Source of the DNA: an uncultured Lachnospiraceae bacterium
GTDB taxonomy: Bacteria > Bacillota > Clostridia > Lachnospirales > Lachnospiraceae
Direction of reading: 5' to 3'
Assembly: GCA_945836565.1 (NCBI GenBank)
Contig: CAMALN010000008.1
Span: 1 to 18,700, forward strand
Length of the DNA: 18,700 nt
Shown: piece by piece, positions 1-13,642 of the stretch
Layout of the letters: each line of letters opens with the position of its first letter
Position numbering within the stretch: position 1 is the first letter of the stretch
Notes under the pieces: model-generated
What the model saw: only the letters and a program-made list of their open reading frames with translations
The model's database searches: none
What the model was told of the DNA's origin: nothing
Made by a program: the position numbers and the translations under genes

Positions 1-13
1 AAAGGGGAAGGTT

Positions 14-781
14 ATGGCAATATTAGACAATAAGGAGAGATTGTGGATTGAATACAATCACTCTAAGACCAGCGCTGTAAGAGAACAGCTTATTGTAGAA
101 TATGTCCCATTGGTAAAGCTTGTTGCGGGCAGATTAAGCATATACTTAGGTTCAAATGTTGATTATGATGACTTGGTCAGCTATGGTGCCTTTGGACTTA
201 TTGATGCTATAGACAAGTTTGACTATAATAAGGGGATAAAATTTGAAACCTATGCAAGTCTTAGAATAAGAGGGGCCATTCTTGACCAAATCAGAAAAAT
301 GGATTGGATTCCGAGGTCTGTGAGACAAAAGCAAAAGGCTATAGATGCTGCTGTAACGGCACTTGAGCAAAGAGTGGGTCAGGACTATGATGATGACGAT
401 ATAGCAAGAGAGTTAGAAATATCTCCTGATGAATACGCAAACTGGCTTTCCATGACTAATGTATCAAATATTTCTTCTTTGGATGAGTATATGGAACAGG
501 GAAGTGAACCGTCAAATACATTGTCGGGTACGGCTTCGAAAAATGATCCGGAGAAGCTTATGGTTGAAAAGGAACAAAAGGAGGCTCTGCTCGAAGCACT
601 TGAGCTTTTGACCGATAAGGAAAAAACCGTAGTGATGCTGTATTATTATGAGGAGCTGACATTGAAAGAAATTTCTCAGGCAATGGAGGTTTCGGAGTCA
701 AGAGTATCTCAGCTGCATTCTAAGGCGTTGCGAAAGCTAAAGACAAAGCTGGAAGATAAATTTGTGTATTTTATGGGATAA
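14..781 (+). CDS. fliA: RNA polymerase sigma factor for flagellar genes (sigma-28, FliA/SigD/WhiG family)
   Basis: A 255-aa sigma-70 family protein of the size usual for sigma-28. Such factors direct RNA polymerase to late flagellar, chemotaxis and motility promoters. Region 2 is clear at about residues 25-106, with the stretch DYDDLVSYGAFGLIDAI followed by FDYNKGIKFETYASLRIRGA and the DQIRKMDWIPRSVR block, all characteristic of FliA/SigD. Region 3 follows (about 107-160). Region 4 with its helix-turn-helix is at about 192-250 (LTLKEISQAMEVSESRVSQL). There is no region 1.1, as expected. The start ATG follows GGGGAAGG. It is the first gene of the window; its upstream partners, probably the che/fla operon, are cut off. 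The next gene begins 29 bases after the stop. FliA is normally held inactive by the anti-sigma factor FlgM, which is not in the window. Family assignment is firm. Confidence 0.95.
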   Translation: MAILDNKERLWIEYNHSKTSAVREQLIVEYVPLVKLVAGRLSIYLGSNVDYDDLVSYGAFGLIDAIDKFDYNKGIKFETYASLRIRGAILDQIRKMDWIPRSVRQKQKAIDAAVTALEQRVGQDYDDDDIARELEISPDEYANWLSMTNVSNISSLDEYMEQGSEPSNTLSGTASKNDPEKLMVEKEQKEALLEALELLTDKEKTVVMLYYYEELTLKEISQAMEVSESRVSQLHSKALRKLKTKLEDKFVYFMG

Positions 782-810
782 TTGGCATTTTATTCAAGGA
801 GGTGTAGGAA

Positions 811-2412
811 ATGAAGTATAAGCATTCTTTTTTTCGGATAGAAATTAAAGAAGACGGGACATATCTTAACATATTTCCTGCATTGGCTGACGGAAAAAAA
901 CTTGAGCTAAAAGAGGTTATGGACTTTCTTGACATAAAGAAGATAGATTACAACATTAAGGTTGTTGAAAAAGCACTTACACTTGTTACACAAAAACCGG
1001 CAAGAATAAAGATATCAGACATACCGGCAGAGCCATTTGGCGAGAGTGCTGTAGTAAATGTTACTCCGGACAGGATGATTGCATACATAAGATTTTATCC
1101 GCCATCAACAGATGGCAAGCTTATGGATAAAAAGGAGATAATGTCTGAGCTCGAGCTCAAAAAAATAACATTTGGAATATCAGAGAAAGTAATAGATTTA
1201 TATATGAGCAATCGTCAATATTGTGCCAATATTCCTATTGCAAAAGGGGAAAAGCCTGTGCTGGCAAAGGATACTATTATAGAATATCTGTTTGATACAA
1301 AACCTTTGTCAAAGCCTGAAATGCTTGAGGATGGCAGTGTTGACTATCATAAGCTGAACCTTTTTACAAGAGTGGAAAAGGGCCAGAAGCTTGCAAAGCT
1401 AACGAAGCATGAGGATGGTATCAATGGAACAGATGTATATGGTAATGTTATAAGCACCACAAAGCCTAAAATATTGAAATTCAAGTACGGAAGAAATATT
1501 ACCGTGTCTGAGGACGGAACTGATCTTATAAGTGAGGTCGACGGTGATGTGACACTTACCAAGGATACCGTGTTTGTATCAGATACGTATAAGGTAGCGG
1601 CTGATGTTGATGCTTCAACAGGTGATATAGAATATGACGGCAGTATATTTATACAAGGAAATGTACGTACGGGCTTTACGGTAAAAGCAAAGGGAGATAT
1701 CCAGATAAACGGTGTAGTTGAAGGTGCAACAATCATTGCAGATGGAAATATTGTGATAAAACGTGGTGTCCAGGGAATGTCAAAGGGCAAGCTTGTTGCA
1801 GGTGGTGATTTAAGTGCGCAGTTTATAGAAAGTGCGAATCTGGATGTAGACGGCGATATAAATGCAGGCTCTATTCTACATAGCAAAATTATGTCACGCG
1901 GTAAGGTTGTGGTAAGCGGGAAAAAAGGCTTTATAGTAGGCGGAGAGATTATATGTGAAAATCTTGTTGAAGTGAATACGATTGGAAACAAGATGGAAAC
2001 CCAGACTGCTATTAAGGTAGGAGTGAAGCCTGAATTGATTGATGAGCTTAAAAACCTTGTTGCAGAGACTACTGAGATGAACAAAATTATTGAAGAAACA
2101 TCTTCATACCTGAATGTTTACAGAAGCAAGGTAAAAAAAGGTGTTAAGCTCACTCCTCAAAATATGAAGCAAATTAAAGAATATACAGGAAGGCTTTCGG
2201 AACTGGAAGAAGAAAAAAGTGCAAAGACAGCTCGAATGATGGAATTAAAGCATGAAATAGACGCCGGAAAAGCCGGCAGGATAAAGGTTTCAGGAGAGGT
2301 GTTTGTAGGAGTTTCTGTCTTTATTGCAAGTAAGATATACAATGTAAAGCAGCATATGTCACATTGTATGTTCAAAATATCTGAGGGTGAGATAGAAGCG
2401 GTATCTTTCTAG
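811..2412 (+). CDS. FapA/DUF342 family flagellar assembly protein A-like protein
   Basis: A 533-aa soluble protein with no signal peptide. The N-terminal part (about 1-235) is the mixed domain found in the FapA (formerly DUF342) family. Residues about 235-400 hold a series of short beta-helix-like repeats of the type GDIQINGVVEGATIIADGNI and KRGVQGMSKGKLVAGGDL, ending in a GKKGFIVGG turn. Residues about 410-490 are charged and predicted to form a coiled coil. In Vibrio, FapA influences polar flagellum assembly; in Clostridia members commonly lie next to fliA. The beta-helix resembles bactofilin and MinC polymer cores, so a scaffolding role is plausible but inferred. The start is supported by the Shine-Dalgarno AAGGAGGTG about 6 bases upstream of the ATG. 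It lies 29 bases after fliA and 36 bases before the next gene, consistent with one operon. Family is confident; exact role is not. Confidence 0.85.
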   Translation: MKYKHSFFRIEIKEDGTYLNIFPALADGKKLELKEVMDFLDIKKIDYNIKVVEKALTLVTQKPARIKISDIPAEPFGESAVVNVTPDRMIAYIRFYPPSTDGKLMDKKEIMSELELKKITFGISEKVIDLYMSNRQYCANIPIAKGEKPVLAKDTIIEYLFDTKPLSKPEMLEDGSVDYHKLNLFTRVEKGQKLAKLTKHEDGINGTDVYGNVISTTKPKILKFKYGRNITVSEDGTDLISEVDGDVTLTKDTVFVSDTYKVAADVDASTGDIEYDGSIFIQGNVRTGFTVKAKGDIQINGVVEGATIIADGNIVIKRGVQGMSKGKLVAGGDLSAQFIESANLDVDGDINAGSILHSKIMSRGKVVVSGKKGFIVGGEIICENLVEVNTIGNKMETQTAIKVGVKPELIDELKNLVAETTEMNKIIEETSSYLNVYRSKVKKGVKLTPQNMKQIKEYTGRLSELEEEKSAKTARMMELKHEIDAGKAGRIKVSGEVFVGVSVFIASKIYNVKQHMSHCMFKISEGEIEAVSF

Positions 2413-2448
2413 ATAGAAATTTTAGAAGGAAGATGTGAGGTGAGAAAT

Positions 2449-2748
2449 ATGATTACACCTATAGTTGCACAAAGCTCGGTTCCAATGGCTGCCATACAGC
2501 AAAACACAGATGCTCAGAGTACAATTAATACAAGCATTGCTGTGCAGAAGGTGCAGGAAAAGGAAAGGGAACAGAAGGAAACTGTTATTAAAAAGGATGA
2601 GGCTGTATTCTATGAACAGCATCATGATGCAAAAGAAGAAGGCAGGAATAAATACCGGAATCTTTACAATAATAAAAAGAAAAAAACAAAGACCGAAAAT
2701 CAAAATACACCTGAGGTAAACAGAGTGAATTTTGATATTAAGCTTTAG
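2449..2748 (+). CDS. Small basic protein of unknown function in the flagellar operon
   Basis: I do not recognise this as a named family. It encodes 99 aa if the ATG preceded by GAGGTGA (2437-2443, 5-base spacing) is the start; an in-frame GTG three codons earlier (2440) is an alternative. There is no signal peptide or membrane segment. The N-terminus is uncharged and rich in Ala, Gln, Thr and Ser. The middle is helical and highly charged (KVQEKEREQKETVIKK). The C-terminal third is strongly basic with KNLYNN-like turns and a KKKKTK run, and the protein ends in a short hydrophobic FDIKL motif. It lies between the FapA-like gene and the SwrB-like gene, so a link to flagellar assembly is guilt by association. 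Its stop codon falls inside a perfect 14-bp tandem duplication. The low-complexity central region suggests intrinsic disorder. Confidence 0.7.
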   Translation: MITPIVAQSSVPMAAIQQNTDAQSTINTSIAVQKVQEKEREQKETVIKKDEAVFYEQHHDAKEEGRNKYRNLYNNKKKKTKTENQNTPEVNRVNFDIKL

Positions 2749-2770
2749 TAAATCAACTTTAGTAAATCAA
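2743..2770 (+). repeat. Perfect 14-bp tandem duplication spanning a stop codon
   Basis: The unit CTTTAGTAAATCAA occurs at 2743-2756 and again, without gap or mismatch, at 2757-2770. The first copy contains the last codon and TAG stop of the small basic protein gene. The second copy fills most of the spacer before the Shine-Dalgarno of the next gene. It looks like a slippage duplication that lengthened the intergenic spacer without changing the protein. Confidence 0.95.
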
Positions 2771-2784
2771 CAAGGAGAAGAAAA

Positions 2785-3423
2785 ATGTCACCAGTAGTAA
2801 TAACACTTATAATTATAGGACTTGCTTTGATTATTGTAAGCTATGTATTTGCAGCAAAGCTTGAAGGAAAAAAAGAAGATGAAACAATTATACGTATACC
2901 TGAGGAGCTTTCTGAGGAGCAAAAGAACAGGATACAGAAAATGATTGATGATTATATGAATGAAAAGATTGATGCAAGACTTGCGGATATCGAGTCTGAT
3001 TTTTCCAAGATAGTGAATGAGAAAACCTTGGCACTGGGAGATTATGCAGTTACCGTAAATGAAGAAATAGACAAGAATCATAAGGAAGTAATGTTCCTGT
3101 ATAATATGCTTGCTGACAAGCAGAAGGAAATAATGACTACTGCAACCATGGTTGATGATTACAGAAAGGACATTGAAAAATTTGTAGAGGCTAATCATTT
3201 GGTTGTAAAGAGAAATGATGAGGACGAGGAGCTTGAAGAAGTAATAAGAGAGATTGAGGATGATACAGAGGCTGAGCAGTCAACAGTAAGTGACTGCAAT
3301 AACGATATTATCCTGGAGCTTCACAAGCAGGGACTCAGTATACTGGAAATTGCTAAACAGCTTGGTCTCGGAGTAGGAGAGGTTAAGTTGGTTGTAGACT
3401 TATATCAAGGAGAACAAAGGTAA
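2785..3423 (+). CDS. SwrB-like membrane-anchored coiled-coil protein (DUF6115-type)
   Basis: A 212-aa protein. Residues about 4-24 form one hydrophobic membrane segment (VVITLIIIGLALIIVSYVF). Residues about 40-140 are long, charged and helical, probably coiled coil. Residues about 145-165 are very acidic. The C-terminal 35 residues (ILELHKQGLSILEIAKQLGL, then a GVGEVKLVVDLY segment) form a helix-turn-helix-like motif. This layout and its position between sigD and rpsB match SwrB (YlxL) of Bacillus subtilis, which promotes flagellar export apparatus assembly and swarming. The assignment rests on architecture and synteny, not on alignment. The ATG follows AAGGAG with good spacing. The stop overlaps the start of the next gene (TAATG), so the two are probably translationally coupled. 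Alternative: a generic HTH-tail membrane protein unrelated to SwrB. Confidence 0.7.
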   Translation: MSPVVITLIIIGLALIIVSYVFAAKLEGKKEDETIIRIPEELSEEQKNRIQKMIDDYMNEKIDARLADIESDFSKIVNEKTLALGDYAVTVNEEIDKNHKEVMFLYNMLADKQKEIMTTATMVDDYRKDIEKFVEANHLVVKRNDEDEELEEVIREIEDDTEAEQSTVSDCNNDIILELHKQGLSILEIAKQLGLGVGEVKLVVDLYQGEQR

Positions 3424-4013
3424 TGAATATGAAGGATTTTTTAAGAGGACTTGGAGCCGGTATTATTTTTTCGGCATTGATAATGCTCGTCGCATATATG
3501 ACATCCGGAAGCTATAGGATATCTGATGCTGAGATAATAAAAAGAGCTGAGAAGCTTGGTATGGTTATGCAGGATAAGCCGATTGTTGCTGAGGATGATG
3601 ATACTGCGGATGTAGCACTGTCTACAGCAGAAGGAGCTACCGAGGCAACGACAGAAGCAACAACAGAAGCAAGCACAGAAGGAACTACTGAGGCAACAAC
3701 AGAAGCAACAGAAGGAACTACTGAGGCAACAACAGAAGCAACAGAAGGAACTACTGAGGTAACAACCGAGGTAAATTCTACAGACATAGCTACGGATTAT
3801 ATAACAGCAGAGATTACTGTATCAAAGGGTATGAATTCTGAGCAGATAGCTAAGCTTGTTCAGGATGCCGGCATAATAGATGATTATATGGAATTTGACA
3901 GATATCTTAATGAAAATGGATATTCAAATATGTTGAGTGTTAATACATTTAAGCTGAATAGCAATATGAGCTATGAAGAGATTGCAAAAGAGCTTACAAA
4001 GGGTGATAGATAA
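3423..4013 (+). CDS. Single-pass membrane protein with Thr/Glu repeat stalk and MltG-like (YceG N-terminal) domain
   Basis: A 196-aa protein. Residues about 8-26 form a membrane segment (LGAGIIFSALIMLVAYM). Residues about 70-117 are an almost pure Thr/Glu/Ala stalk built from an 11-residue unit EGTTEATTEAT. Residues about 130-196 resemble the LysM-like subdomain at the start of endolytic transglycosylase MltG: ITVSKGMNSEQIAKLVQDAG, then a F-x-x-YL-x-x-NGY segment and MSYEEIAKELTKG. The catalytic domain of MltG is absent, so the protein is probably not a lytic enzyme; it may bind peptidoglycan or localise something at the wall through a long flexible stalk. The start overlaps the preceding stop, and AAGGAG lies about 9 bases upstream. 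It is the last gene before the rpsB promoter, with no obvious terminator in between, so some read-through into rpsB is possible. Domain call is moderate. Confidence 0.7.
   Translation: MNMKDFLRGLGAGIIFSALIMLVAYMTSGSYRISDAEIIKRAEKLGMVMQDKPIVAEDDDTADVALSTAEGATEATTEATTEASTEGTTEATTEATEGTTEATTEATEGTTEVTTEVNSTDIATDYITAEITVSKGMNSEQIAKLVQDAGIIDDYMEFDRYLNENGYSNMLSVNTFKLNSNMSYEEIAKELTKGDR
3678..3776 (+). repeat. 33-bp in-frame tandem repeat coding for the Thr/Glu stalk
   Basis: A 33-bp unit coding EGTTEATTEAT is present as two identical copies (3678-3710 and 3711-3743) followed by a diverged partial third copy from 3744. Degenerate versions of the shorter GCAACAACAGAA motif extend upstream to about 3640. 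The unit is a multiple of three, so copy-number change would lengthen or shorten the stalk without a frameshift. Confidence 0.9.
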
Positions 4014-4021
4014 AAAAGTGC

Positions 4022-4050
4022 TTGTCAAGTGCTGAAAATTATGTTAATAT
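4022..4050 (+). promoter_or_regulatory. Extended -10 sigma-A promoter for rpsB-tsf
   Basis: TTGTCA at 4022-4027 matches the -35 consensus at 5 of 6 positions. After 17 bases comes TAATAT at 4045-4050, with the TG of an extended -10 at 4042-4043. The expected transcription start is near 4057, just upstream of the folded leader. It starts 9 bases after the stop of the preceding gene, so rpsB has its own promoter. Confidence 0.7.
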
Positions 4051-4056
4051 CGCCTT

Positions 4057-4202
4057 TGTGTGATTTGAGTGAAATATGTATCACTCTGCCCTGTGAGTAT
4101 TTTCCACAGGAGTAAATCATGTGAGTGGATTGGCAGGGGGTGCCATAGACGCGATGGTCCTTGCCCGTGTATTATTACAATAAGCTCACAGAAGAAAGAA
4201 CC
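4057..4202 (+). ncRNA. Candidate structured rpsB leader RNA (three-way junction plus bulged hairpin domain)
   Basis: The sequence between the promoter and the rpsB ribosome binding site can fold into two adjacent domains. Domain A: helix P1 4061-4066/4114-4119 (UGAUUU with AAAUCA) encloses P2 4067-4072/4081-4086 (GAGUGA with UCACUC) and P3 4090-4095/4105-4110 (CCUGUG with CACAGG), giving a three-way junction. Domain B: helix P5 4121-4126/4184-4189 (GUGAGU with GCUCAC, one GU) encloses P4 4132-4138/4159-4165 (GGCAGGG with CCUUGCC, one GU), a 3-base bulge at 4139-4141, and a terminal helix 4142-4146/4154-4158 with loop AGACGCG. One base separates the domains. Autogenous control by S2 through such a leader is known for rpsB in gamma-proteobacteria; that this leader does the same is inference. 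I do not recognise it as a named RNA family. Confidence 0.65.
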
Positions 4203-4214
4203 AGGAGGTATATT

Positions 4215-4940
4215 ATGAGCGTTATTTCAATGAAGCAGTTACTCGAGGCAGGTGTTCATTTTGGACATCAGACAAGAAGATGGAATCCTAAGATGGCTGA
4301 GTATATCTATACTGAGCGTAACGGAATCTACATCATTGACCTTCAGAAGTCAGTAGGAAAGGTTGATGAGGCATATGAGGCTATCAAGAATTGTGTAGCT
4401 GATGGCGGCAAGATTCTTTTTGTTGGTACTAAAAAGCAGGCACAGGATTCAATCAAGTCAGAGGCATTAAGATGTGGTATGTACTACGTTAACGAGAGAT
4501 GGTTAGGTGGTATGCTCACAAACTTTAAGACCATTCAGACAAGAATCGAGAAGCTTAAGAAGTATGAGCAGATGGAGGCAGAAGGCACATTTGCACAGTA
4601 CACAAAGAAGGAAGTTATAGAGTTCAAGAAGGAGTGGGAGAAGCTTGAGGCTAATCTCGGCGGTATCAAGGATATGAAGTCCATTCCTGATATGATATTT
4701 ATCGTAGATCCTCGCAAGGAGAGAAACTGCGTACAGGAGGCACATTCACTTGGTATTCCTCTTGTTGGTATAGCTGATACAAACTGTGATCCTGAGGAGC
4801 TTGATTATGTTATCCCGGGTAACGATGATGCAATCAGAGCCGTAAAGCTTATCGTAGCAAAGATGGCAGATGCTGTTATCGAGGCAAACCAGGGAGCAGA
4901 CGCAGTTGTAGAGGAAGAGGAAGAGGCTACTGAGGAGTAG
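4215..4940 (+). CDS. rpsB: Small ribosomal subunit protein S2
   Basis: Encodes 241 aa, typical for bacterial S2, a late-binding 30S protein needed for S1 binding and mRNA docking. Diagnostic stretches are [20 protein letters not shown] near the N-terminus, [23 protein letters not shown], the coiled-coil region around residues 105-150, and [19 protein letters not shown] followed by [15 protein letters not shown]. The tail is very acidic (about residues 226-241), a common but variable feature. The start chosen is the ATG at 4215, with AGGAGG at 4203-4208 and normal spacing. An in-frame TTG at 4161 would add 18 residues that are not part of the S2 family, and it lies inside a predicted leader helix, so it was rejected. 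It is followed 32 bases later by tsf, the standard bacterial pairing. Confidence 0.98.
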
Positions 4941-4972
4941 TTTTGTATTTGGATTTATAGGAGGATATATAC

Positions 4973-6058
4973 ATGGCAGCTATTTCAGCTAGTATGGTTA
5001 AGGAGTTGAGAGAGCTCACAGGTGCCGGAATGATGGATTGTAAGAAGGCACTTGCAGAGACTGATGGAAATATGGAAGCAGCAGTAGAGGTACTTCGTAA
5101 GAGTGGTGCAGCTAAGGCTGAGAAGAAGGCAAGCAGAATCGCTGCAGAGGGTATCTGCCGTTCAGCAGTTAATGGTACAACAGGTGTTGTTGTAGAGGTT
5201 AACTCGGAGACAGACTTCGTTGCAAAGAACGAGGTATTCCAGACATTTGTTCAGTCTATAGCTGATCAGGCACTTACATCATCACTTGTTGGTGGTAAGG
5301 ATGGCGAGGATGTTGAGGCACTTCTTGGTGAGAACGGACTTAAGGATGCTCTCGTAGAGAAGACTGCAACAATTGGTGAGAAGTTATCTTTCCGTAGATT
5401 TGAGAAGATTTCCGGTGATGCAGTTGTAGACTACCTGCATGGTAATGGCAGAATCGGCGTTCTTGTTGCAGGTATGGGTGCAAATGATGATGCTGCTAAG
5501 GAAGCACTTAAGAATGTAGCTATGCAGATTGCAGCTATGAATCCGGAGTATATCAGCAGAGCAGATATTTCAGCGGATGCTATGGCTAAGATAAAGGAAA
5601 TCACTGTTGATAGTGCATTAAATGCACCTGATACACTTCCTAAGCCAATCTTAATGAAGTTAATTGACAAGGCTTGTGCAGGAGTATGGAGTGCTGAGGA
5701 TGTAGCAATCTACGAAGAGAAGAAGAGCAATATGAACTTCTTGTTCAACTTCCTTTCATCAGAGGCTAAGTCTCAGTTAGCTGAGCTTGCTATGGCTGAC
5801 AAGGAAACAATTGTTGCTGATAAGATATTCAATGGTCTTGTTGAGGGACGTATTTCTAAGCAGGTTAAGGAAATCAGTCTTCTGGATCAGGTTTATGTTA
5901 AGGCTGAGGATGGAAAGCAGACAGTGGCCAAGTATCTTGAGTCAGTTAATAAGAACCTTTCAATCGCTAAGTTTGTTCGTTTCGAAGTTGGTGAGGGTAT
6001 GGAGAAGAAGAATGAAGACTTTGCAGCTGAGGTTGCAGCTCAGATGGCCGGAAAGTAA
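4973..6058 (+). CDS. tsf: Elongation factor Ts, with a long insertion in the coiled-coil region
   Basis: The 361-aa nucleotide exchange factor for EF-Tu. The N-terminal UBA-like domain ([20 protein letters not shown]) and the EF-Tu-contacting TDFVAKN motif (residues 80-86) are intact. [11 protein letters not shown] and the C-terminal [22 protein letters not shown] module are also conserved. Escherichia coli EF-Ts is 283 aa. Most of the excess here lies between PEYISR (191-196) and VEGR (290-293): about 103 residues against about 42 in E. coli, roughly 60 extra, in the coiled-coil subdomain. The reading frame is open and the flanking motifs align, so this is an insertion, not a frameshift. Shine-Dalgarno AGGAGG sits at 4959-4964. 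It is co-transcribed with rpsB and ends at a strong terminator. Confidence 0.97.
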
Positions 6059-6080
6059 TTTGATACTTTGAAGAATCAGT

Positions 6081-6107
6081 GGGATGCCGTTTTGGCATCC
6101 CTTTTTT
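6081..6107 (+). terminator. Intrinsic terminator after tsf
   Basis: A perfect 8-bp stem, GGGATGCC (6081-6088) with GGCATCCC (6094-6101), has a GTTTT loop and is followed directly by six T residues (6102-6107). It closes the rpsB-tsf transcript 22 bases after the tsf stop. Confidence 0.95.
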
Positions 6108-6131
6108 GTACATATATTGCTAAAAGTTTCC

Positions 6132-6160
6132 TTGTTTATATACCTGTAATGTGCTAGAAT
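6132..6160 (+). promoter_or_regulatory. Probable promoter for the ldhA operon
   Basis: TTGTTT (6132-6137), a 17-base spacer, and TAGAAT (6155-6160) preceded by TG at 6152-6153 form an extended -10 promoter. A perfect TATAAT also occurs at 6189-6194 but lacks a recognisable -35, so it may be a second, weaker or regulated start. No full Rex-type operator (TTGTTAA-N4-TTAACAA) is visible. Confidence 0.55.
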
Positions 6161-6227
6161 GATATATGTATAAAATATGTAAAATTGGTATAATAATATG
6201 TATTATCAAAGTGGGAGGATACTGATT

Positions 6228-7226
6228 TTGGATAAGCTTCGTATATTGTTTTATGATACAAAAAAATATGATAGGGATTCTTTTGAAAAAGCTATAAAAG
6301 AATATGATGATATACACATTGACTATCTGGATGCGGATTTGTCATTACAGACAACAAGCCTGGCAAAGGGCTATGATGCGGTATGCGCATTTGTAAGCTC
6401 AGATGTAAGCGGGGATATACTTGAAGGTCTTGCACAAAACGATATTAAGCTTGTGCTTATGAGGTGTGCGGGCTTTAATAATGTTGATGTGGACAAGGCT
6501 AAGGAATTGGGTATAACAGTACTTCGCGTTCCGGGATATTCGCCTGAGGCAGTGGCTGAACACGCTATGGCACTTGCTCTTGCGGTTAACCGTCATATTC
6601 ATAAGGGCTATATTAAGGTGAGAGAGAATAATTTCAGTCTCATCGGACTTACAGGCATAAACTTTTTTGGAAAGACTGCCGGTATAGTAGGAACCGGAAA
6701 AATAGGTGCTGCTATGTGTAGGATATGCAAGGGCTTCGGAATGAAGGTTATAGCATATGATATGTATCCAAACAAGGATTTGGATTTCGTAGAATATGTT
6801 GACTTTGATACACTTCTTGCACAAAGCGATTTGATATCGTTACATTGTCCTCTGACTCCGGAGACAAAGCATCTTATCTGTGACAAAACGATACAGAAGA
6901 TGAAGGATAACGTTATACTTGTAAATACCTCGAGAGGAGCCTTGATAAAGACAGAGGATTTGATAAGCGGAATAAGGGCGAAAAAGTTCTTTGGTGTAGG
7001 ACTTGATGTATATGAAGAAGAGACAAACAATGTATTTGAGAACAGAGAGGATGACATATTAGAGACTTCAATAACCTCGAGACTTCTTTCGTTTCCAAAT
7101 GTAATAGTGACATCGCATCAGGGATTTCTGACAGAGGAAGCATTGCTTTCCATAAGTCACACTACACTTAAGAATGCACGTGATTATGCAAATGGTACAG
7201 TTGAGCAGTCTAACAGGGTATGTTAG
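6228..7226 (+). CDS. ldhA: D-lactate dehydrogenase, LdhA type (D-isomer 2-hydroxyacid dehydrogenase)
   Basis: Encodes 332 aa from a TTG start. The TTG is chosen because GGGAGGA (6213-6219) is correctly spaced from it and the product then begins MDKLRILFYDTKKYD, aligning with the N-terminus of Escherichia coli LdhA; an upstream in-frame ATG (6198) precedes the Shine-Dalgarno. It reduces pyruvate to D-lactate with NADH in fermentation. Visible features: RCAGFNNVDVDKAKELG and YSPEAVAEHAM in the catalytic domain, the Rossmann motif GTGKIG (155-160), LISLHCPLTPETKHL, catalytic Arg236 in NTSRGALI, the Glu of VYEEE (263-265), and catalytic His297 in TSHQGFLTEEAL. The whole length matches LdhA more closely than PGDH or VanH relatives. 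It leads a probable five-gene operon; the next start is 20 bases after its stop. Confidence 0.93.
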   Translation: MDKLRILFYDTKKYDRDSFEKAIKEYDDIHIDYLDADLSLQTTSLAKGYDAVCAFVSSDVSGDILEGLAQNDIKLVLMRCAGFNNVDVDKAKELGITVLRVPGYSPEAVAEHAMALALAVNRHIHKGYIKVRENNFSLIGLTGINFFGKTAGIVGTGKIGAAMCRICKGFGMKVIAYDMYPNKDLDFVEYVDFDTLLAQSDLISLHCPLTPETKHLICDKTIQKMKDNVILVNTSRGALIKTEDLISGIRAKKFFGVGLDVYEEETNNVFENREDDILETSITSRLLSFPNVIVTSHQGFLTEEALLSISHTTLKNARDYANGTVEQSNRVC

Positions 7227-7246
7227 ATACTTATGAGGAGAGAGCA

Positions 7247-7726
7247 ATGGAATTAAACAGTTTAGCAGATGCCAGATATCTGTTGGAGCATAGACAGCTG
7301 GTGAATTATCTGTACAAGACAAAGAAGGATTCTATAAAGGGGTTATTACCTCTTATAGAGAATCTTGCTTATAGTACCTTCAAGACAAATTGTGAAGAAA
7401 ATAATATTGAATTTCCATACAGTGAAGATGATTTCAAGGTAAAGCAGCTTGAGCTTTCTGATAAAATCAAAGCAGTAAAGCTGGAGCTGCCTGAGCCACA
7501 GGATGAATCACAGTGCTATGCAGTTTATTTTGTGTACGCTACTGATTTTAGCAGGATGTATTACTTTACCATAGAGAAGGAGTTGCATGGGAAAGAACAG
7601 AAATTGGGTGGCTGGATGAAAAAAGCACATTTTAATCATGGCTTGGTAGAGCTGGATGAGGAATCCCAGAAGCAGAAGATGCTCAAGATATTTGAAGAGT
7701 CACCGATTATCAATAGGGAAAAGTAG
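7247..7726 (+). CDS. Uncharacterised 159-aa protein
   Basis: I do not recognise the family. The start ATG at 7247 has GAGGAGAG (7235-7242) at good spacing; an in-frame ATG at 7220 overlaps the end of ldhA and has no such signal. The product is soluble, with no signal peptide or membrane segment, and mixed alpha/beta in appearance: a helical N-terminal half (ARYLLEHRQLVNYLYKTKKD, then IKGLLPLIENLAYSTFKTN) and a central strand-rich part with aromatic residues (CYAVYFVYATDFSRMYYFTI), followed by a GGWMKKAHFNHG loop. It has one Cys in the helical part and one in the strand part and no obvious catalytic motif. It lies 20 bases after ldhA and 19 bases before the PocR gene, so is probably in the same operon. 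Its 3' end may contain a sigma-28-like promoter. Confidence 0.75.
   Translation: MELNSLADARYLLEHRQLVNYLYKTKKDSIKGLLPLIENLAYSTFKTNCEENNIEFPYSEDDFKVKQLELSDKIKAVKLELPEPQDESQCYAVYFVYATDFSRMYYFTIEKELHGKEQKLGGWMKKAHFNHGLVELDEESQKQKMLKIFEESPIINREK
7683..7709 (+). promoter_or_regulatory. Candidate sigma-28 (FliA/SigD) promoter before the PocR gene
   Basis: TCAAGATA (7683-7690), an 11-base spacer and ACCGATTA (7702-7709) fit the FliA consensus TAAAGTTT-N11-GCCGATAA, with the CCGAT core intact and exact spacing; in the Bacillus form it reads TCAA-N15-ACCGATTA. It lies inside the 3' end of the preceding gene, with a predicted start about 30 bases before the PocR ATG. A chance match in coding sequence is possible. 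Confidence 0.35.
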
Positions 7727-7745
7727 TGTATTTTGGGGGAATTAT

Positions 7746-8999
7746 ATGGTCAAGACAAGATTGACTGATTTTATAAATGTTGAGCTGCTTCAAAGCATGC
7801 AGGATATGTTTGTAAAATCTACAGGACTTATAGCACATATATTGGATCAGGATGGTAATCCAATTACATATAACAGCGTTAGGGATGAGTTCTATGAAAA
7901 GGTTATAAAATCATCACCTCTGGCTGTTGAAGAGCATCAACAGCAGAGAAGGCTTGGAGCTATGAAGGCTCTGATAGAAGAAAAACCGTACATACATGAT
8001 TGCTTTGGGTGTGTAAAAAGATTCGCTGTACCTATCATCATAAGAGGACAATATCTGGGATGCTTTATGGGTGGTAGGGCTATTATTGAAGAGCCCGTCA
8101 GAAAAAGCTGTGATGTGTGGGCGGATAGTTTTAAGCTTGATAAGGACAGCTTTTTTGAAGAGATAGGTAAAATGAAGAGATTTACCAGCATTGAGTTAAA
8201 CAATTGTATTGAGCTGGCGGCATATTTTATGACACTTGTAGAAAAGATTGCAAGGGAAAATTTCTATAACAGACAGCAGGTCGAGGAGGTTAAGATTAAG
8301 TCTGAATCTCAGATGAATTATATAAGCGAGATTAGTACTATTGTAGAAAAAGCTGCCGGTAATATTTCACGAGAGGCATATGCCATAGCGGAAGAGATTA
8401 CGGGAGAGTCTAAGGATAAATTTATAAAGCTTGCGGAAGAAGTGAAGAAATTCACGGATGAGGTACAAGGTACTATTGAGTATGCAAAGTTCTCTGAATG
8501 GCAGCTTACATATAATGATTATAATTATAGCATAGAACAGATGATGGATATAGTGTGTGGGACTGCCAACAGAAAGCTTTCTGAACAGCAAAAAGAGGTT
8601 TCATACAGAATTGGATGTCAGGAAGATGCTATGCTTATGGGAGATGCAGGCTGCATAAGTCAGGTTATAAATAAGCTTATTAATTTCTGTGCACACGAGC
8701 TTGGCGCTGACAGGATAAGAGTTTATGCTGATTCCAGCAAGAAGGGGTATGCTACATTTCTTGAGATAAACATTCAGACTACAATAGGAAAAAGTGGACA
8801 GGAAATATTTGATATATTGGATAACAACTTTGATTTTAGAACACTTGCGGCTTATATGGCGGTGAATACCGAGGATAATCCATTTGCTCAGGTTGGAAAT
8901 CTTGTAAGACATATGAATGGAATGATACGTCTTGATACTTACGGTGGAGGATTAATTGAATTCGTGATGTCGGTTCCTCAGCTCGAGGTAGTTGAATAA
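7746..8999 (+). CDS. PocR-type sensor domain fused to a degenerate histidine-kinase-like core
   Basis: Encodes 417 aa, cytoplasmic. The ATG at 7746 follows GGGGGA (7735-7740); an in-frame upstream ATG lies inside the preceding gene and was rejected. Residues about 5-165 are a PocR ligand-binding domain: FVKSTGLIAHILDQDGNPIT, the Cys motif HDCFGCVKRFAVPIIIRGQY (Cys86, Cys89) and LGCFMGGRAI. PocR domains bind small hydrocarbon derivatives. Residues about 180-250 are helical where a kinase would have its H-box, but no SHE-x-R-x-P motif is present. Residues about 250-415 keep the outline of a kinase ATPase domain (MGDAGCISQVINKLINF, and at the end LVRHMNGMIRLDTYGGG then FVMSVP), but the N-box asparagine pattern and the DxGxG box are missing. 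It is probably a non-catalytic sensor. The c-di-GMP gene that follows starts 16 bases later, a likely partner. Confidence 0.75.
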   Translation: MVKTRLTDFINVELLQSMQDMFVKSTGLIAHILDQDGNPITYNSVRDEFYEKVIKSSPLAVEEHQQQRRLGAMKALIEEKPYIHDCFGCVKRFAVPIIIRGQYLGCFMGGRAIIEEPVRKSCDVWADSFKLDKDSFFEEIGKMKRFTSIELNNCIELAAYFMTLVEKIARENFYNRQQVEEVKIKSESQMNYISEISTIVEKAAGNISREAYAIAEEITGESKDKFIKLAEEVKKFTDEVQGTIEYAKFSEWQLTYNDYNYSIEQMMDIVCGTANRKLSEQQKEVSYRIGCQEDAMLMGDAGCISQVINKLINFCAHELGADRIRVYADSSKKGYATFLEINIQTTIGKSGQEIFDILDNNFDFRTLAAYMAVNTEDNPFAQVGNLVRHMNGMIRLDTYGGGLIEFVMSVPQLEVVE

Positions 9000-9015
9000 C
9001 AGGAGAGTGTAAGAT

Positions 9016-10692
9016 ATGGGGTGTTTTGATTTTGAAAAGTACATAAAATGTATAGAAGACTTCGTATACGATATGAAAAACAATGATACTTATTTAGGGG
9101 AAGAGATGGCGAACAGGCTAAAACCTCTATGCGAGCTTTTGAGGGTATCATTGGTTACTACCAGATTTTATGAGAGTCAAAAGGACGTACTGGAGAACAA
9201 TTTCAAATATGATGAGCTGAAGGTGAATGACAAGAATCCGCAGTATGATGAGTGTTGCTATGTAGCTCAGGATGAGACGACTACAGCAGGATATGAGGTA
9301 CATTATAAGGCATATAAGTCCTTGGATGATGAGCCGTGGACAGAGCAGGAAAAGGATGCTGTAAAATTTGTTTTGAATCTTATGTTCGTTTTCAGTGGAA
9401 GGATAAGGCTTATCGCGAAATGTGAGGAGCTTACCTTCTATGATGTGGAGACAAAGCTTCCGAATTCTGCTTATTTCAGAATGGAATGTCAGAAGAAGAT
9501 AAATATGGGAAGTGCAAAGGAATACTGCGTTTTGTTTTATAATATCAGGGGTTTTGCAAGACTCAATGCAACCTTCGGAAGAAATATGTGTTTGAAGGTT
9601 ATGACCTTATATGCGCAAGGTCTCAAGAGTGTTATGGCAGAAAGTGGTTTTGTGTGCAGACTGGGCGGTGACAATTTTGCATGTCTTGTGAGAAATGATA
9701 AGCTTGATTCTGTAAAATCATATCTTGCAGGAACGCTCGTCGAGGTTGATGATGAGGTGGTTGATAAGGTTACGATGAGCGCCAGTGTGGGTATATATGA
9801 GATGCATGAGGATATCAGGGATGCGAGTGAAGCGCTCGAGAATGCCAGTAAGGCATGTAACATAGCAAAGAATGTATTGAAGGAGCCATACGTATACTAT
9901 AACGAAGATGTTATGGAGCATCTGTCTGAAAATCGTATATATGAGGATCTTTTTCCTGATGCAATTGAAAATGAGGAATTCAAGGTCTACTATCAGCCTA
10001 AGGTTAATCTTAAGGATTATAAGCTTTGTGGTGCAGAGGCACTATGCAGGTGGGTTCATGACGGAGAAATATTGATGCCTTACAAATTTATTCCTTTGTT
10101 TGAACAGTCTAATCTTATATGTGAGCTTGACTTTTATATGCTTGAGCATGTGTGTAAGGATTTGAGAAGCTGGTTGGATTCAGGCAGACAGATAGTAACT
10201 GTTTCCGTCAACCTCTCTAGAAAACACTTTGGTGCACCGGATTTACTTACAAAAATTATAGAAATAATAGACAGCTACAATGTTCCTCATGAGTACATAG
10301 AGATTGAGCTTACGGAAACTACAACGGACGTTGACTATGACTATCTGAAGAGCATAGTGTATGGATTAAAGTCGGTGGGAATAAGGACATCGGTTGATGA
10401 TTTTGGTGTCGGATATTCGTCACTTAATCTTATTAGGGATTTACCTTGGGATGTAATTAAGCTTGACAAGAGCTTTCTATATATGTGCGATGATGATAGT
10501 CGCGGCAATACGATGCTTAAGCATGTAATAGCCCTGACTCAAAGTCTTGGTATGGAATGTATAGTAGAAGGCGTGGAGTCTATAAAGCACGTTAAGCTTC
10601 TAAAGGAGAATAACTGCTTTAACGCACAAGGCTTTTATTTTGACAAACCTATACAAAAAAGTGAATTTGAAGATAGATTATCATATTTATGA
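9016..10692 (+). CDS. GGDEF-EAL protein with dead GGDEF and intact EAL; predicted c-di-GMP phosphodiesterase
   Basis: Encodes 558 aa with no membrane segment. Residues 1-135 form an N-terminal domain I cannot name, perhaps GAF-like. Residues about 136-295 are a GGDEF domain whose signature reads GGDNF (217-221), so the catalytic acid is Asn; the metal-binding position in VLFYNIRGF is also not Asp. Diguanylate cyclase activity is unlikely. Residues about 305-555 are an EAL domain with the key residues: EAL (341-343), Asn399 in SVNLSRKHF, the ELTE glutamates (431, 434), DDFG (461-464), Lys482 in IKLDKSF, the IVEGVES glutamates and Gln538 in AQGFYFDKPI. It should hydrolyse c-di-GMP to pGpG, lowering c-di-GMP and favouring motility over attachment. 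The Shine-Dalgarno is AGGAGAG (9001-9007). The PocR protein just upstream may control it. Confidence 0.9.
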   Translation: MGCFDFEKYIKCIEDFVYDMKNNDTYLGEEMANRLKPLCELLRVSLVTTRFYESQKDVLENNFKYDELKVNDKNPQYDECCYVAQDETTTAGYEVHYKAYKSLDDEPWTEQEKDAVKFVLNLMFVFSGRIRLIAKCEELTFYDVETKLPNSAYFRMECQKKINMGSAKEYCVLFYNIRGFARLNATFGRNMCLKVMTLYAQGLKSVMAESGFVCRLGGDNFACLVRNDKLDSVKSYLAGTLVEVDDEVVDKVTMSASVGIYEMHEDIRDASEALENASKACNIAKNVLKEPYVYYNEDVMEHLSENRIYEDLFPDAIENEEFKVYYQPKVNLKDYKLCGAEALCRWVHDGEILMPYKFIPLFEQSNLICELDFYMLEHVCKDLRSWLDSGRQIVTVSVNLSRKHFGAPDLLTKIIEIIDSYNVPHEYIEIELTETTTDVDYDYLKSIVYGLKSVGIRTSVDDFGVGYSSLNLIRDLPWDVIKLDKSFLYMCDDDSRGNTMLKHVIALTQSLGMECIVEGVESIKHVKLLKENNCFNAQGFYFDKPIQKSEFEDRLSYL

Positions 10693-10716
10693 TATTTCTA
10701 TAGTTAAGAGGTATAT

Positions 10717-11337
10717 ATGGCAAAAAAATATTATGCTGTAAGGGTTGGAAGAGTTCCGGGTATATATATTAGCTGGGCAGATTGCAGGAAGCAGGTGGAT
10801 GGCTTCTCAGGACCGGTGTATATGGGCTTTGATGATATCCAAAGCGCAGAAGAATTTCTAAAATGCAGTGATAATCATAGTAAAAGTGGCAAGGCGAATG
10901 AGTATATTACTCAGGAGGAGTTCGATAACTATGCTTTTGTCGATGGTTCGTATAACGCGACAACCAGGGTATACGGCTATGGTGGTTTTCTTGTAGAAAA
11001 TGGTAACAGACATATAATACAGGGACATGGCGATGATGTGGAAATGGCATCGATGAGGAATGTAGCAGGAGAGGTTTTAGGAAGCATGGCTGCGATAAAG
11101 CTTGCTCTCGAGCTTGGACTTACTGAGCTTGCAGTATATTATGATTATATGGGCATAGAGCAGTGGGCAAATGGCGGATGGAAGAGAAATAAAAAAGGAA
11201 CCATAGTTTATTATGATTATGTTCAAAGTATCAAAGATAAGATAAACCTTAAGTTTATTAAGGTAAAGGGACATTCCGGAGTTGAGGGAAATGAAGAAGC
11301 CGACCGTCTGGCAAAGCAGGCAGTCGGCATAGAATGA
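10717..11337 (+). CDS. rnhA: Ribonuclease HI with N-terminal RNA/DNA hybrid-binding domain
   Basis: Encodes 206 aa. Residues about 1-50 are the hybrid-binding domain also found in eukaryotic RNase H1 and caulimovirus VI (KYYAVRVGRVPGIYISWADC, then the GFSGPVYMGFDDIQSAEEFL segment). Residues about 70-205 are the RNase H1 fold with all catalytic acids: Asp76 in FVDGSYN, Glu119 in NVAGEVLG, Asp143 in YYDYMGIEQW and Asp196 in NEEADRLAK, plus His186 in KGHSGVEGN. It degrades the RNA strand of RNA-DNA hybrids, limiting R-loops and removing primers. It lies 24 bases after the EAL gene and is probably the last gene of the ldhA operon. Its final codons contain a strong hairpin that may serve the opposing gene. 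A convergent gene ends only 5 bases beyond its stop. Confidence 0.93.
   Translation: MAKKYYAVRVGRVPGIYISWADCRKQVDGFSGPVYMGFDDIQSAEEFLKCSDNHSKSGKANEYITQEEFDNYAFVDGSYNATTRVYGYGGFLVENGNRHIIQGHGDDVEMASMRNVAGEVLGSMAAIKLALELGLTELAVYYDYMGIEQWANGGWKRNKKGTIVYYDYVQSIKDKINLKFIKVKGHSGVEGNEEADRLAKQAVGIE
11299..11328 (-). terminator. Candidate terminator hairpin for the minus-strand gene, inside the rnhA 3' end
   Basis: GCCGAC (11299-11304) pairs with GTCGGC (11323-11328); after one C-A mismatch five more pairs follow (11306-11310 with 11317-11321), closing a 6-base loop. Read on the minus strand it lies just after the stop of the small membrane gene and is followed by TTCTTCATTTC, a moderately T-rich tail. 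On the plus strand there is no T-run after it. Strength as a terminator is uncertain. Confidence 0.45.
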
Positions 11338-11342
11338 TATAT

Positions 11343-11582
11343 CTAATATTTACTTAATTCCATAAGGAATTTGATGAGACCACATATTATTATGAATATA
11401 AAGAGGCTTATGTACCAGAAGCCTTTAAGTAAGGCCACTAGCGCTGTGATAAAAAGTAGGACAAGCATGCCTACAGTCATGGCAGTTAGTGGTTTTATCA
11501 TGTTTGCATCCTGATGTGCCAGAACGTAAACCACAAGATATATTAAGCTGTAAACAATGATAAGTATACCTAAAATTATCAC
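11343..11582 (-). CDS. Small hydrophobic membrane protein of unknown function
   Basis: Encodes 79 aa from a GTG start on the minus strand, the only convincing gene on that strand. Support is AGGAGG at 11591-11596 (minus-strand sense) 8 bases before the GTG, and an extended -10 promoter further upstream. The product has two or three membrane segments: about residues 1-22 (ILGILIIVYSLIYLVVYVLA), about 33-52 (MTVGMLVLLFITALVALL) and about 53-73 (GFWYISLFIFIIICGLIKFL), joined by short loops with few charges, ending LMELSKY. No family is recognised. It converges on rnhA with a 5-base gap and is divergent from accD, separated by about 210 bases. No functional link to either neighbour can be claimed. 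Confidence 0.75.
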   Translation of the reverse strand: MIILGILIIVYSLIYLVVYVLAHQDANMIKPLTAMTVGMLVLLFITALVALLKGFWYISLFIFIIICGLIKFLMELSKY

Positions 11583-11609
11583 GTGTAAATCCTCCTAAGT
11601 ATTATAAAA

Positions 11610-11638
11610 AGATTATCATAAACACCGGCTTTTATCAA
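11610..11638 (-). promoter_or_regulatory. Promoter of the small membrane protein gene
   Basis: On the minus strand, TTGATA (11633-11638) and TAATCT (11610-11615) are separated by 17 bases, with the TG of an extended -10 just before the second box. The ribosome binding site lies 13 bases downstream, implying a very short leader. Confidence 0.55.
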
Positions 11639-11794
11639 GAAACAAATGAGTAAGGTGTGATTATTGAATATATACCGGCATATGTGATTTTGAATACTAC
11701 GTTACGAGGTTTGACATATATTTATACAATATGATACAAATGTATAGATAATGTGCAAAGGTAAGCACTGTATAAAGAGGAGTATTGATACAAA
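11639..11794 (+). promoter_or_regulatory. Promoter and leader region of the acc-fab cluster
   Basis: TTGACA at 11711-11716 is a perfect -35 box. The best -10 is TACAAA at 11735-11740 with TG at 11732-11733 (18-base spacing); exact boundaries are uncertain. Between the boxes lies CATAT (11715-11719) facing ATATG (11729-11733), a short dyad that could be an operator. I do not recognise a FapR or FabT consensus. The start codon of accD is about 50 bases downstream of the predicted start. Bases 11639-11700 show nothing I can name. Confidence 0.5.
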
Positions 11795-12688
11795 ATGGAA
11801 AAGAAATTAAGTATTTTCAAGAAAAAGCTTACAAGGCTTAGTAACTCAGAGAATACAATGGTGACCGAAAAGAAGGAAGCTGTTGAAAAAGAGGATGCAG
11901 TGGCAAAGGCTGAGGCTATGACTGAGTGTCCAAAATGTAAGCAGACATTTAAGAAAATTGTAATTAAGGAAAATATGAATGTCTGTATAGCCTGTGGATA
12001 TCATTTTGTGATTTCAGCAGAGAGAAGAGTCAGATTACTCACAGATCAGGGTTCATACAAACCTTTAAAATGCAAGGTTGATTTTGCAAATCCACTTGAA
12101 TATCCTGATTATGAGGATAAGATACATGCACTTCAAGCGAAAACGGGTATGGATGAAGCAGTATATACCTGCGTTGGAAAAATAGAAGGATATGAAGCAG
12201 TTATTGCAGTAATGAGTAGTAAATTCCTTATGGGTAGTATGGGTATAGCAGTTGGTGAAAAGGTTACTTATGCTATAGAATATGCAGACAGAAAGAAATT
12301 ACCGCTCATAATTTTTACAGCAAGTGGCGGAGCAAGAATGCAGGAGGGAATATTATCTCTTATGCAGATGGCTAAAACAAGTGCAGCCATAGAAAAATTC
12401 AATCTAAACGGCGGATTATATATATCGGTATTGACTCATCCTACTACAGGTGGTGTAAGCGCAAGCTTTGCTACGCTTGGAGATATTACACTGGCTGAGC
12501 CGGATGCCCTTATCGGCTTTGCAGGCCCCAGAGTAATAGAGCAGACTATAGGACAGAAGCTTCCGGAAGGCTTTCAGCGTTCGGAGTTCCAGATGGAACA
12601 TGGCTTTGTGGATCAAATAGTTCCAAGAAACAAGATGCGTGAGACTTTGGCGCTTATATTAAAGCTTCACTGTAAAAAGAGCAAATAA
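11795..12688 (+). CDS. accD: Acetyl-CoA carboxylase carboxyltransferase subunit beta
   Basis: Encodes 297 aa. AccD and AccA form the carboxyltransferase that moves CO2 from biotin on AccB to acetyl-CoA, making malonyl-CoA. The N-terminal zinc ribbon is intact (Cys45, Cys48, Cys64, Cys67 in ECPKCKQTF and VCIACGYHF). The crotonase-like core shows KFLMGSMGIAVGEKVTYAIE, ASGGARMQEGILSLMQMAK, HPTTGGVSASFATLGD and IGFAGPRVIEQTI. Before the ribbon there is a 44-residue Lys/Glu-rich extension (1-44), probably disordered. The ATG at 11795 lies 12 bases after AGAGGAG (11776-11782), a long spacing, so the true start is slightly uncertain; other in-frame ATGs follow at codons 22 and 42. The next gene starts 12 bases after its stop. 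Confidence 0.95.
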   Translation: MEKKLSIFKKKLTRLSNSENTMVTEKKEAVEKEDAVAKAEAMTECPKCKQTFKKIVIKENMNVCIACGYHFVISAERRVRLLTDQGSYKPLKCKVDFANPLEYPDYEDKIHALQAKTGMDEAVYTCVGKIEGYEAVIAVMSSKFLMGSMGIAVGEKVTYAIEYADRKKLPLIIFTASGGARMQEGILSLMQMAKTSAAIEKFNLNGGLYISVLTHPTTGGVSASFATLGDITLAEPDALIGFAGPRVIEQTIGQKLPEGFQRSEFQMEHGFVDQIVPRNKMRETLALILKLHCKKSK

Positions 12689-12700
12689 GGAGATGTTGAT

Positions 12701-13642
12701 ATGATAAAAGAGATAGATGCTAAAATATCCGAGATAGAGGCCTCTATAGAGCAGCTCCAGAAGGAAGAATGCGTTGACGAGGCACAGATATATGTACTTA
12801 GAAGACAGAGACATGATCTTATAAGGATGTGCAAGAATCTTGATGCACATGATAAGGTTTTTCTTGCAAGACATAAGAAGAGACCTAAGATAACAGAATA
12901 TATTGATAATATATTTGAGGATTTCTTTGAACAAAAGGGTGATGCACTTGGCAAGGATGATGGAAGTATATTTGGAGGAATTGCAACCTATCATGGTATG
13001 CCTGTGACTGTACTTGGACATAGAAAGGGCAATGACTTAAATGAGAATTTGAAGTGTAATTTTGGTATGCCGGGTCCTGAAGGATATCGTAAGGCGCTTA
13101 GAATGATGAAGCAGGCAGAGAAGTTTGGCAGACCTATTATTACATTTATAGATACCCCGGGAGCATATCCGGGGCTTGAGGCCGAGACAAATGGTCAGAG
13201 TATAGCAATTGCAAGCAACTTAGCAAAGATGAGTGCACTTAAGGTTCCGGTAATAGCAGTTGTAACCGGAGAAGGAAGCAGTGGAGGAGCCCTTGCAATA
13301 GGTGTTGCGAATAGTGTTCTTATGCTTGAAAATGCAGTATATTCAATTCTTTCACCGGAAGGCTATGCAACTATACTTTGGAAGGATTCAACAAGAGCTG
13401 ATGAAGCTTGTAATATGATGAAGCTTACAGCTCAGGATTTGAAGGGCTTTAATGTTGTAGACGATATAATTCCGGAGCCTGTAGGAGGAGCACATATCAA
13501 TCCTAAGGTGGTATATAAGTCAGTTGATAAATATATTAAGAAGGAATTGGATAAGCTTGTTAAGATGGGTCCGGATGAGCTTGCAAAGCATAGATATAAG
13601 AAGTTTAGAAGTATAGATTCGGATTATATGAAAATGATATAG
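12701..13642 (+). CDS. accA: Acetyl-CoA carboxylase carboxyltransferase subunit alpha
   Basis: Encodes 313 aa, the usual length for AccA. The N-terminal helical part (about 1-60) is followed by RPKITEYIDNIFEDFFEQKG, then the core: HRKGNDLNENLKCNFGMPGP, EGYRKALRMMKQAEKFGRPI, FIDTPGAYPGLEAETNGQS, GEGSSGGALAIGVANSVLML and SPEGYATILWKD. It pairs with AccD to form the A2B2 carboxyltransferase that commits acetyl-CoA to fatty-acid synthesis. The Shine-Dalgarno AAGGAG lies before the ATG at normal spacing. It follows accD by 12 bases, an arrangement that favours equal synthesis of the two subunits. The biotin carboxylase half (AccB, AccC) is not in this window. Confidence 0.97.
   Translation: MIKEIDAKISEIEASIEQLQKEECVDEAQIYVLRRQRHDLIRMCKNLDAHDKVFLARHKKRPKITEYIDNIFEDFFEQKGDALGKDDGSIFGGIATYHGMPVTVLGHRKGNDLNENLKCNFGMPGPEGYRKALRMMKQAEKFGRPIITFIDTPGAYPGLEAETNGQSIAIASNLAKMSALKVPVIAVVTGEGSSGGALAIGVANSVLMLENAVYSILSPEGYATILWKDSTRADEACNMMKLTAQDLKGFNVVDDIIPEPVGGAHINPKVVYKSVDKYIKKELDKLVKMGPDELAKHRYKKFRSIDSDYMKMI

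Follow-up and report, generated by a model that had tools for sequence, protein, structure and literature searches.

The leader of rpsB, the gene of ribosomal protein S2, was analysed in an 18,700-nucleotide stretch of DNA from an uncultured Lachnospiraceae bacterium (GenBank assembly GCA_945836565.1, contig CAMALN010000008.1, positions 1 to 18,700), referred to here as the window. Positions 4120-4202 of its forward strand hold a conserved RNA element that we consider, with good confidence, to be the S2-binding operator of the rpsB-tsf messenger RNA and a Bacillota representative of the published rpsB motif, whose fold would block translation initiation. An earlier note, made from the letters of the window, had described six helices between an extended -10 promoter and the rpsB Shine-Dalgarno sequence, grouped into a 5' three-way junction (domain 1) and a second domain nearer the gene (domain 2), and had raised S2 autoregulation as a possible function. 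A conserved and covarying RNA does lie between promoter and Shine-Dalgarno sequence, and S2 autoregulation is its best explanation.

Covariation and spread of the conserved domain

Upstream sequence was compared for 110 rpsB genes (L001-L110), three of which have too little of it (L007, L037 and L053). Some of the loci used in the whole analysis repeat one genome (L001 and L140 are both the window's own, L005 and L031 share an identical leader). Domain 2 recurs in a constant order: CA, P1, a purine-rich joint, P2, GGUGCC, the P3 hairpin, GGU, the second strand of P2, a joint, the second strand of P1, GAAG, an A-rich stretch with AACC and the Shine-Dalgarno sequence (Table 1). The conserved CA before P1, the GAAG after it and the pseudoknot between GGU and ACC were absent from the first description. 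The helix closing the domain had been recognised there; by comparison it is one pair longer, with U4120-A4190 added to give 4120-4126/4184-4190. Of 220 elements, 19 have ACGC and 17 have GCUC in the P3 loop region; both look like lineage-specific motifs. A possible resemblance of GGUGCC and the loop sequence ACGC to helix 26 of 16S rRNA was considered and dropped; ACGC is present in just those 19 loops.

On 37 seed loci (40 previewed, minus L056, L040 and L099), 97.3% of the P1 cells are paired and all 7 of its 7 pairs have changed on both sides. The three helices together are paired in 87.8% of cells, compared to 34.3-42.2% when the partners are slid; the corresponding figures are 90.8% and 31.9-41.9% for 87 loci, and 95.6% and 34.6-44.3% for 100 rows with the pseudoknot included, 53 of which are loci brought in by genome scans. 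One of the 100 rows, a second match in L045, is due to chance (E 0.18) and was excluded from the 99-row covariation, pseudoknot and kink-turn counts. Under a tree-based null whose E-values are rough (our own script simulating columns along the tree, 20 simulated alignments, extrapolated tail), 16 of 20 pairs in 99 rows reached E<0.05, with 7/7 in P1, 6/6 in P2, 2/4 in P3 and 1/3 in the pseudoknot; the four failing pairs are nearly constant, with 0 to 4 changes on either side. Outside the drawn structure, a further five pairs passed (alignment columns 2-156, 27-105, 20-114, 2-148 and 16-146). All of these but 2-148 adjoin the ends of P1 or P2. Columns 2 and 156, which correspond to 4116 and 4193 in the window, covary strongly (A-A in 47, C-G in 35 and U-A in 9 of 99 rows), and this suggests that P1 continues via a non-canonical step. 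Covariation among relatives was the check that the earlier note had proposed for its helices: domain 2 came through it, while domain 1 offered nothing to align. We conclude from the comparison that domain 2 is a real and deeply conserved RNA structure.

The same holds for the three-pair pseudoknot beside the Shine-Dalgarno sequence, which on the evidence of compensatory change is real. In the window it consists of G4139-C4202, G4140-C4201 and U4141-A4200. The triple that precedes P3 is GGU in 194 of the 220 elements, UGU in 10, AGU in 9 and GUU in 7, and the complement of the element's own triple stands in the tail before the Shine-Dalgarno sequence in 184/194, 9/10, 6/9 and 7/7 of them, respectively. 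The complements of UGU and AGU are ACA and ACU, and ACC stands in none of these 19 rows; UGU/ACA rows are spread over five families and AGU/ACU rows over four. The GUU rows carry little information, because their complement AAC occurs in nearly every tail. Overall, 206 of 220 tails carry the complement of their own triple, compared to a mean of 174 and a maximum of 183 over 2000 permutations of the triples among rows, figures that are not probabilities since the rows share ancestry. In 195 of the 208 elements where the distance was measurable, 0-5 nucleotides separate the end of the 3' partner from the Shine-Dalgarno core.

Genomes were searched with a first model (R1) and a Firmicutes-only model (R2), the pseudoknot being drawn in neither. 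Part of the rows in the later counts went into building these models. A set of 80 rows had no share in this, although it was found and aligned with R2; it represents 80 of the 118 phylum-scan places that were not yet loci and lie outside the window's family. R1 matched 105 of 108 rpsB upstream loci (29/30 up to L030 and 76/78 beyond), with L007, L042 and L048 missed and L037 and L053 not searched. Whole-genome scans placed the element in at least 63 of 99 relatives with R1 and, with R2, in at least 101/197 genomes of the order, 91/393 of the class and 140/299 of the phylum, in samples that overlap. Some are missed by the scans: genome G029 gave no match among the relatives, yet its locus L030 scores 40.6 bits. 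Every positive genome of the order, class and phylum scans has one match, and among the relatives only G018 has two, each before one of its two rpsB copies. The position is equally constant. Within 60 nucleotides after the element rpsB starts in 139 of 141 rows, the window itself being counted untested, and in 80/80 of the further rows; the two exceptions are L045, with its chance match, and L126, whose alignment to rpsB began at residue 13 and was lost to the filter. Of the 140 positives of the phylum scan, 100 were checked (20 + 80) and all 100 have rpsB directly downstream. In the window, the element ends 7 nucleotides before the start codon region of rpsB.

Table 1. Features of the rpsB leader and its surroundings in the window
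Feature	Position	Strand	Basis or remark
Predicted rpsB promoter	4022-4050	+	-35 TTGTCA 4022-4027; TG-extended -10 TAATAT 4045-4050; spacer 17 nucleotides
Three-way junction domain (domain 1)	4057-4119	+	4061-4066/4114-4119, 4067-4072/4081-4086, 4090-4095/4105-4110; z -3.13
P1, 5' strand	4120-4126	+	comparative alignments
P1-P2 joint, 5' side, GGAUU	4127-4131	+	alignments; G4128 and A4129 at kink-turn position
P2, 5' strand	4132-4138	+	comparative alignments
Conserved GGU bulge, pseudoknot 5' half	4139-4141	+	comparative alignments
P3, 5' strand	4142-4146	+	comparative alignments
P3 loop AGACGCG	4147-4153	+	read from sequence
P3, 3' strand	4154-4158	+	comparative alignments
P2, 3' strand	4159-4165	+	comparative alignments
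P2-P1 joint, 3' side, expanded in window	4166-4183	+	possible 3-bp hairpin 4169-4171/4176-4178 in computed fold
P1, 3' strand	4184-4190	+	comparative alignments
Conserved GAAG after P1	4191-4194	+	comparison of upstream regions
ACC, pseudoknot 3' half, abuts Shine-Dalgarno	4200-4202	+	comparative alignments
Shine-Dalgarno AGGAGG of rpsB	4203-4208	+	read from sequence
rpsB (ribosomal protein S2)	4215-4940	+	Pfam Ribosomal_S2, E 2e-101
tsf (elongation factor Ts), presumed co-transcribed with rpsB	4973-6058	+	Pfam EF_TS, E 8.3e-57

Kink-turn signature at the joint between P1 and P2

The part of this analysis that is new, and in our opinion most worth following, concerns the joint between P1 and P2, which was inspected for a contiguous stem followed by a three-nucleotide bulge and then by G-A and A-G pairs. 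As read from the alignments, most phylum-wide members bear this kink-turn signature. Among the 80 phylum-scan rows, the tandem is present in 70, a bulge of exactly three nucleotides in 61 and both features in 57; when the 3' strands were shuffled among the rows, a bulge of exactly three was obtained in 9.5 rows on average and in 17 at most. Both features also occur in 40 of 49 class and phylum rows (four of which belong to the window's family), compared to only 23 of 87 Lachnospiraceae-level rows. The pair next to the tandem, in 129 rows, is non-Watson-Crick with a G on the non-bulged strand in 52 (five of them G-U) and Watson-Crick in 23. According to a rule given in PMC4382518, the former permits folding in metal ions alone and the latter forbids it.

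The window's own joint fails the definition of a kink-turn: G4128 does face A4182, but A4129 is opposed by U4181, with about 15 nucleotides in place of the three-nucleotide bulge. Joints are expanded in other members of the genus too. The k-junction is a known three-way form of the kink-turn, and the joint of the window may be elaborated in a similar way.

Meyer et al. 2009 (PMC2704228) make no mention of a kink-turn in their section on rpsB. Among the works listed by a non-exhaustive search of the literature, only a 2024 review (PMC10931766) covers both rpsB and the kink-turn, and the passage concerned ties the kink-turn to uL10; none of those listed links a kink-turn to an S2 leader, and an earlier description may exist. 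The signature suggests a kink-turn as the hinge of the leader. We tentatively propose, giving the idea slightly less than an even chance, that the S2 operator of Bacillota forms a separate structural class, organised around a kink-turn that the operator of Escherichia coli lacks: the kink would bend the arm of P2 and P3 back and so bring GGU to the ACC by the Shine-Dalgarno sequence, the form in the window's genus would be a three-way joint resembling a k-junction, and the kink-turn might be a site for an L7Ae-family protein replacing S1 as the partner of S2. Proteins of this family bind kink-turns.

Ligand, mechanism and the 5' domain

The leader very probably lets S2 shut off its own synthesis. 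We infer S2 as the ligand from homology and from findings in E. coli summarised in a review (PMC10931766), and a block of initiation as the mechanism. P1 and P2 would form a long stem capped by P3, and the GGU, which stays unpaired where P2 meets P3, would fold back onto the ACC just 5' of the Shine-Dalgarno sequence. S2 in excess over 30S subunits would bind the region spanning P2, GGU and P3 and stabilise the pseudoknot. Once the pseudoknot is locked, AGGAGG would be hidden from the 30S subunit, loading would be blocked and less S2 and elongation factor Ts (EF-Ts) would be made.

Several observations weigh against this reading. There is no match in 302 of 393 class genomes and 159 of 299 phylum genomes, and a true absence of the element is likely in many of them. 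About 10 to 44 candidates were scored per genome, and the single match of each positive genome could hide weaker ones. In the pseudoknot, two of the three pairs are near-invariant and fail the covariation test, and the exact complement is missing in 14 of 220 elements, 4 of which are GGU facing ACU and closable by a G-U pair. When the 26 non-GGU rows are taken alone, 22 carry their own complement, compared to a mean of 15.5 and a maximum of 23 over 2000 permutations, the permuted figures being so high partly because AAC, the complement of GUU, occurs in nearly every tail. The score behind the homology to the E. coli leader is weak. Finally, tsf lies within 700 nucleotides after rpsB in 156 of the 158 loci with enough sequence (85 loci were too short), and gene order therefore cannot separate S2 from EF-Ts as the ligand. 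Separation of tsf from rpsB was tried as a way to name the ligand and failed for this reason. The two loci without tsf at this distance are L082, where it lies about 0.9 kb downstream, and L155, which ends soon after a lengthened rpsB and in which, on our own reading, an antisense frame resembles the start of tsf.

This constant neighbourhood of tsf is one reason to consider that the RNA regulates rpsB-tsf in response to something other than S2 alone, namely EF-Ts, S1 together with S2, or an L7Ae-family protein that recognises kink-turns. The requirement of uS2 for bS1 as a helper in E. coli, mentioned in the review (PMC10931766), and the kink-turn signature of most phylum-wide members, a motif bound by such proteins, point the same way. 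We nevertheless regard such a ligand as unlikely: in the rows checked the element stands directly before rpsB and not before tsf alone, and the homologous leader of E. coli responds to S2 according to the same passages of PMC10931766.

The proposed operator function for S2 concerns domain 2, and the status of domain 1 was assessed separately. All six helices of the earlier note can be read from the sequence where it had placed them. The minimum-energy fold of 4057-4202 (-44 kcal/mol, z -2.36, 3 of 200 shuffles folding as well) contains five of them unchanged, while the helix closing domain 1 is shifted by one pair to 4060-4065/4115-4120, with 5 of 6 pairs kept; U4120 is paired with G4060 in this fold and not with A4190. 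Folded alone, domain 1 (4057-4119) has a z-score of -3.13, with 2 of 300 shuffles folding as well, compared to -1.75 and 18 of 300 for domain 2 (4115-4203). With regard to chance the two domains differ: domain 2, for all its modest z-score, has strong comparative support, and domain 1 folds well but has none. These values carry a warning: folding energy alone would pick the wrong domain, since the better z-score is that of the unconserved one.

A 68-base query of domain 1 matched, among 37 genomes of the genus, only the window's own; two of the 36 others (G002 and G011) had given no rpsB. The spacing between the -10 box and P1 tells the same story. A promoter match is also present upstream of P1 in 105 measured loci, at a median distance of 22 nucleotides from -10 to P1, compared to 69 in the window. 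Of 27 genus loci, 18 have 20-23 nucleotides, seven have 30-48, the window has 69 and one was mis-measured (L025, with the spacer taken to a wrong -10 box). Six of the seven loci with 30-48 nucleotides (L006, L015, L019, L023, L024 and L026) fold a single hairpin unrelated to domain 1. Domain 1 was therefore rejected as part of the conserved unit; on this comparison it is a lineage-specific 5' extension, private to the window's genome, and perhaps a stabiliser of the 5' end.

A private structured domain that begins near the predicted transcript start, together with the different single hairpin found there in those six loci, could mean that the fold governs transcript stability or processing (entry of an RNase, protection of the 5' end) rather than S2-controlled initiation. 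We hold this to be quite improbable, because the conserved part is the Shine-Dalgarno-proximal domain and the short distance from pseudoknot to Shine-Dalgarno core fits control of initiation. That domains 1 and 2 make up one six-helix regulatory unit, as the earlier note had it, is hardly credible: the minimum-energy structure accommodates both with little conflict, but only domain 2 is conserved, domain 1 has no sequence match in the 36 other genus genomes and the 69-nucleotide spacer is far from the median.

Gene context and relation to known S2 leaders

The extended -10 promoter that had been noted upstream of the leader is present, and the rpsB transcript is predicted to begin near 4057. 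Promoter-like sites in 3900-4300 number 3, compared to 1.5 expected from shuffles, so that the promoter pattern is weak taken alone. The same interval holds no terminator-like site, and transcription attenuation was therefore not followed. No tRNA was found. In several genus relatives (L002, L003 and L012, for example) the -35 box of rpsB lies, by eye, within an inverted repeat followed by a T run that resembles the terminator of the upstream gene; the repeat is degenerate in the window (4010-4050). The open reading frame before rpsB (3423-4013) has a weak YceG-like C-terminus, below the Pfam cut-off, and contains a Thr/Glu/Ala-rich repeat at 3640-3780. After tsf comes a D-isomer-specific 2-hydroxyacid dehydrogenase (6198-7226), where E. 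coli has pyrH. Most of the nearest relatives of the window's rpsB are labelled Lachnospiraceae, Coprococcus, Roseburia or the like; a few bear odd labels, Bacteroides for example.

The earlier note knew of no clostridial S2-binding leader of this shape. That the shape is new for the group is not supported, as such an anatomy is already given for 'some Firmicutes' by Meyer et al. 2009 in their section on rpsB (PMC2704228). The rpsB motif described in that section lies upstream of rpsB and takes in the gamma-proteobacterial S2 operator. It comprises a long P1, P3 and a three-stem junction. In Firmicutes, P2 is very short if present at all, and the pseudoknot, in which J2-3 pairs with the strand extending 3' of P1, is limited to three pairs. 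Eckert and Weinberg 2020, in their Table 1, list 20 new leaders, none of them for S2. Rfam 15 gave no family at the gathering threshold in the window, and a search of 4000-4260 with E up to 5 gave no t44, the Rfam family RF00127 of the E. coli leader, but only two snoRNA matches, which were taken as chance. In 41 relatives, t44 was found in none over its cut-off of 44 and in one below it (G126, 34.4 bits), at a place (G126:C6:72110-72209) that coincides with the R1 and R2 matches. Thermotoga maritima also matches t44 below the cut-off in a control. Leaders of the t44 kind may have a wider reach than annotated.

In the reverse direction and with filters off, R2 gave the E. coli leader 17.9 bits (E 1.8e-4 in 271 bases), the next best match having 3.1 bits; this leader is annotated tff/T44 and Rfam t44 matches it at 83.5 bits. 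In E. coli, uS2 in excess represses translation of rpsB-tsf, a small deletion of a conserved bulge may abolish this repression and bS1 helps uS2, according to the passages on rpsB in the review (PMC10931766). From the anatomy of the published rpsB motif and from the weak recognition of the E. coli leader by R2, we identify 4120-4202, by sequence comparison, as a leader of the published S2 kind that Rfam does not recognise. A well-supported S2 leader is thereby available for a large part of the phylum (at least 140 of 299 sampled genomes), unannotated by t44 in the 41 relatives tried.

Set beside the rpsB motif as presented in PMC2704228, the element of the window shares the position before rpsB, the long P1, P3, the absent or very short P2 of the motif and the three-pair pseudoknot. 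It differs in that the one long P1 given there corresponds here to two helices, P1 and P2, whose joint bears the kink-turn signature in most members across the phylum. The E. coli leader precedes the same gene and displays the same order (CAC, helix, GGUGCC, hairpin, helix, AACC), but on our reading of its sequence its joint shows no tandem G-A pair. This comparison raises the question of whether the same S2 contacts are presented on two different scaffolds in E. coli and in Clostridia.
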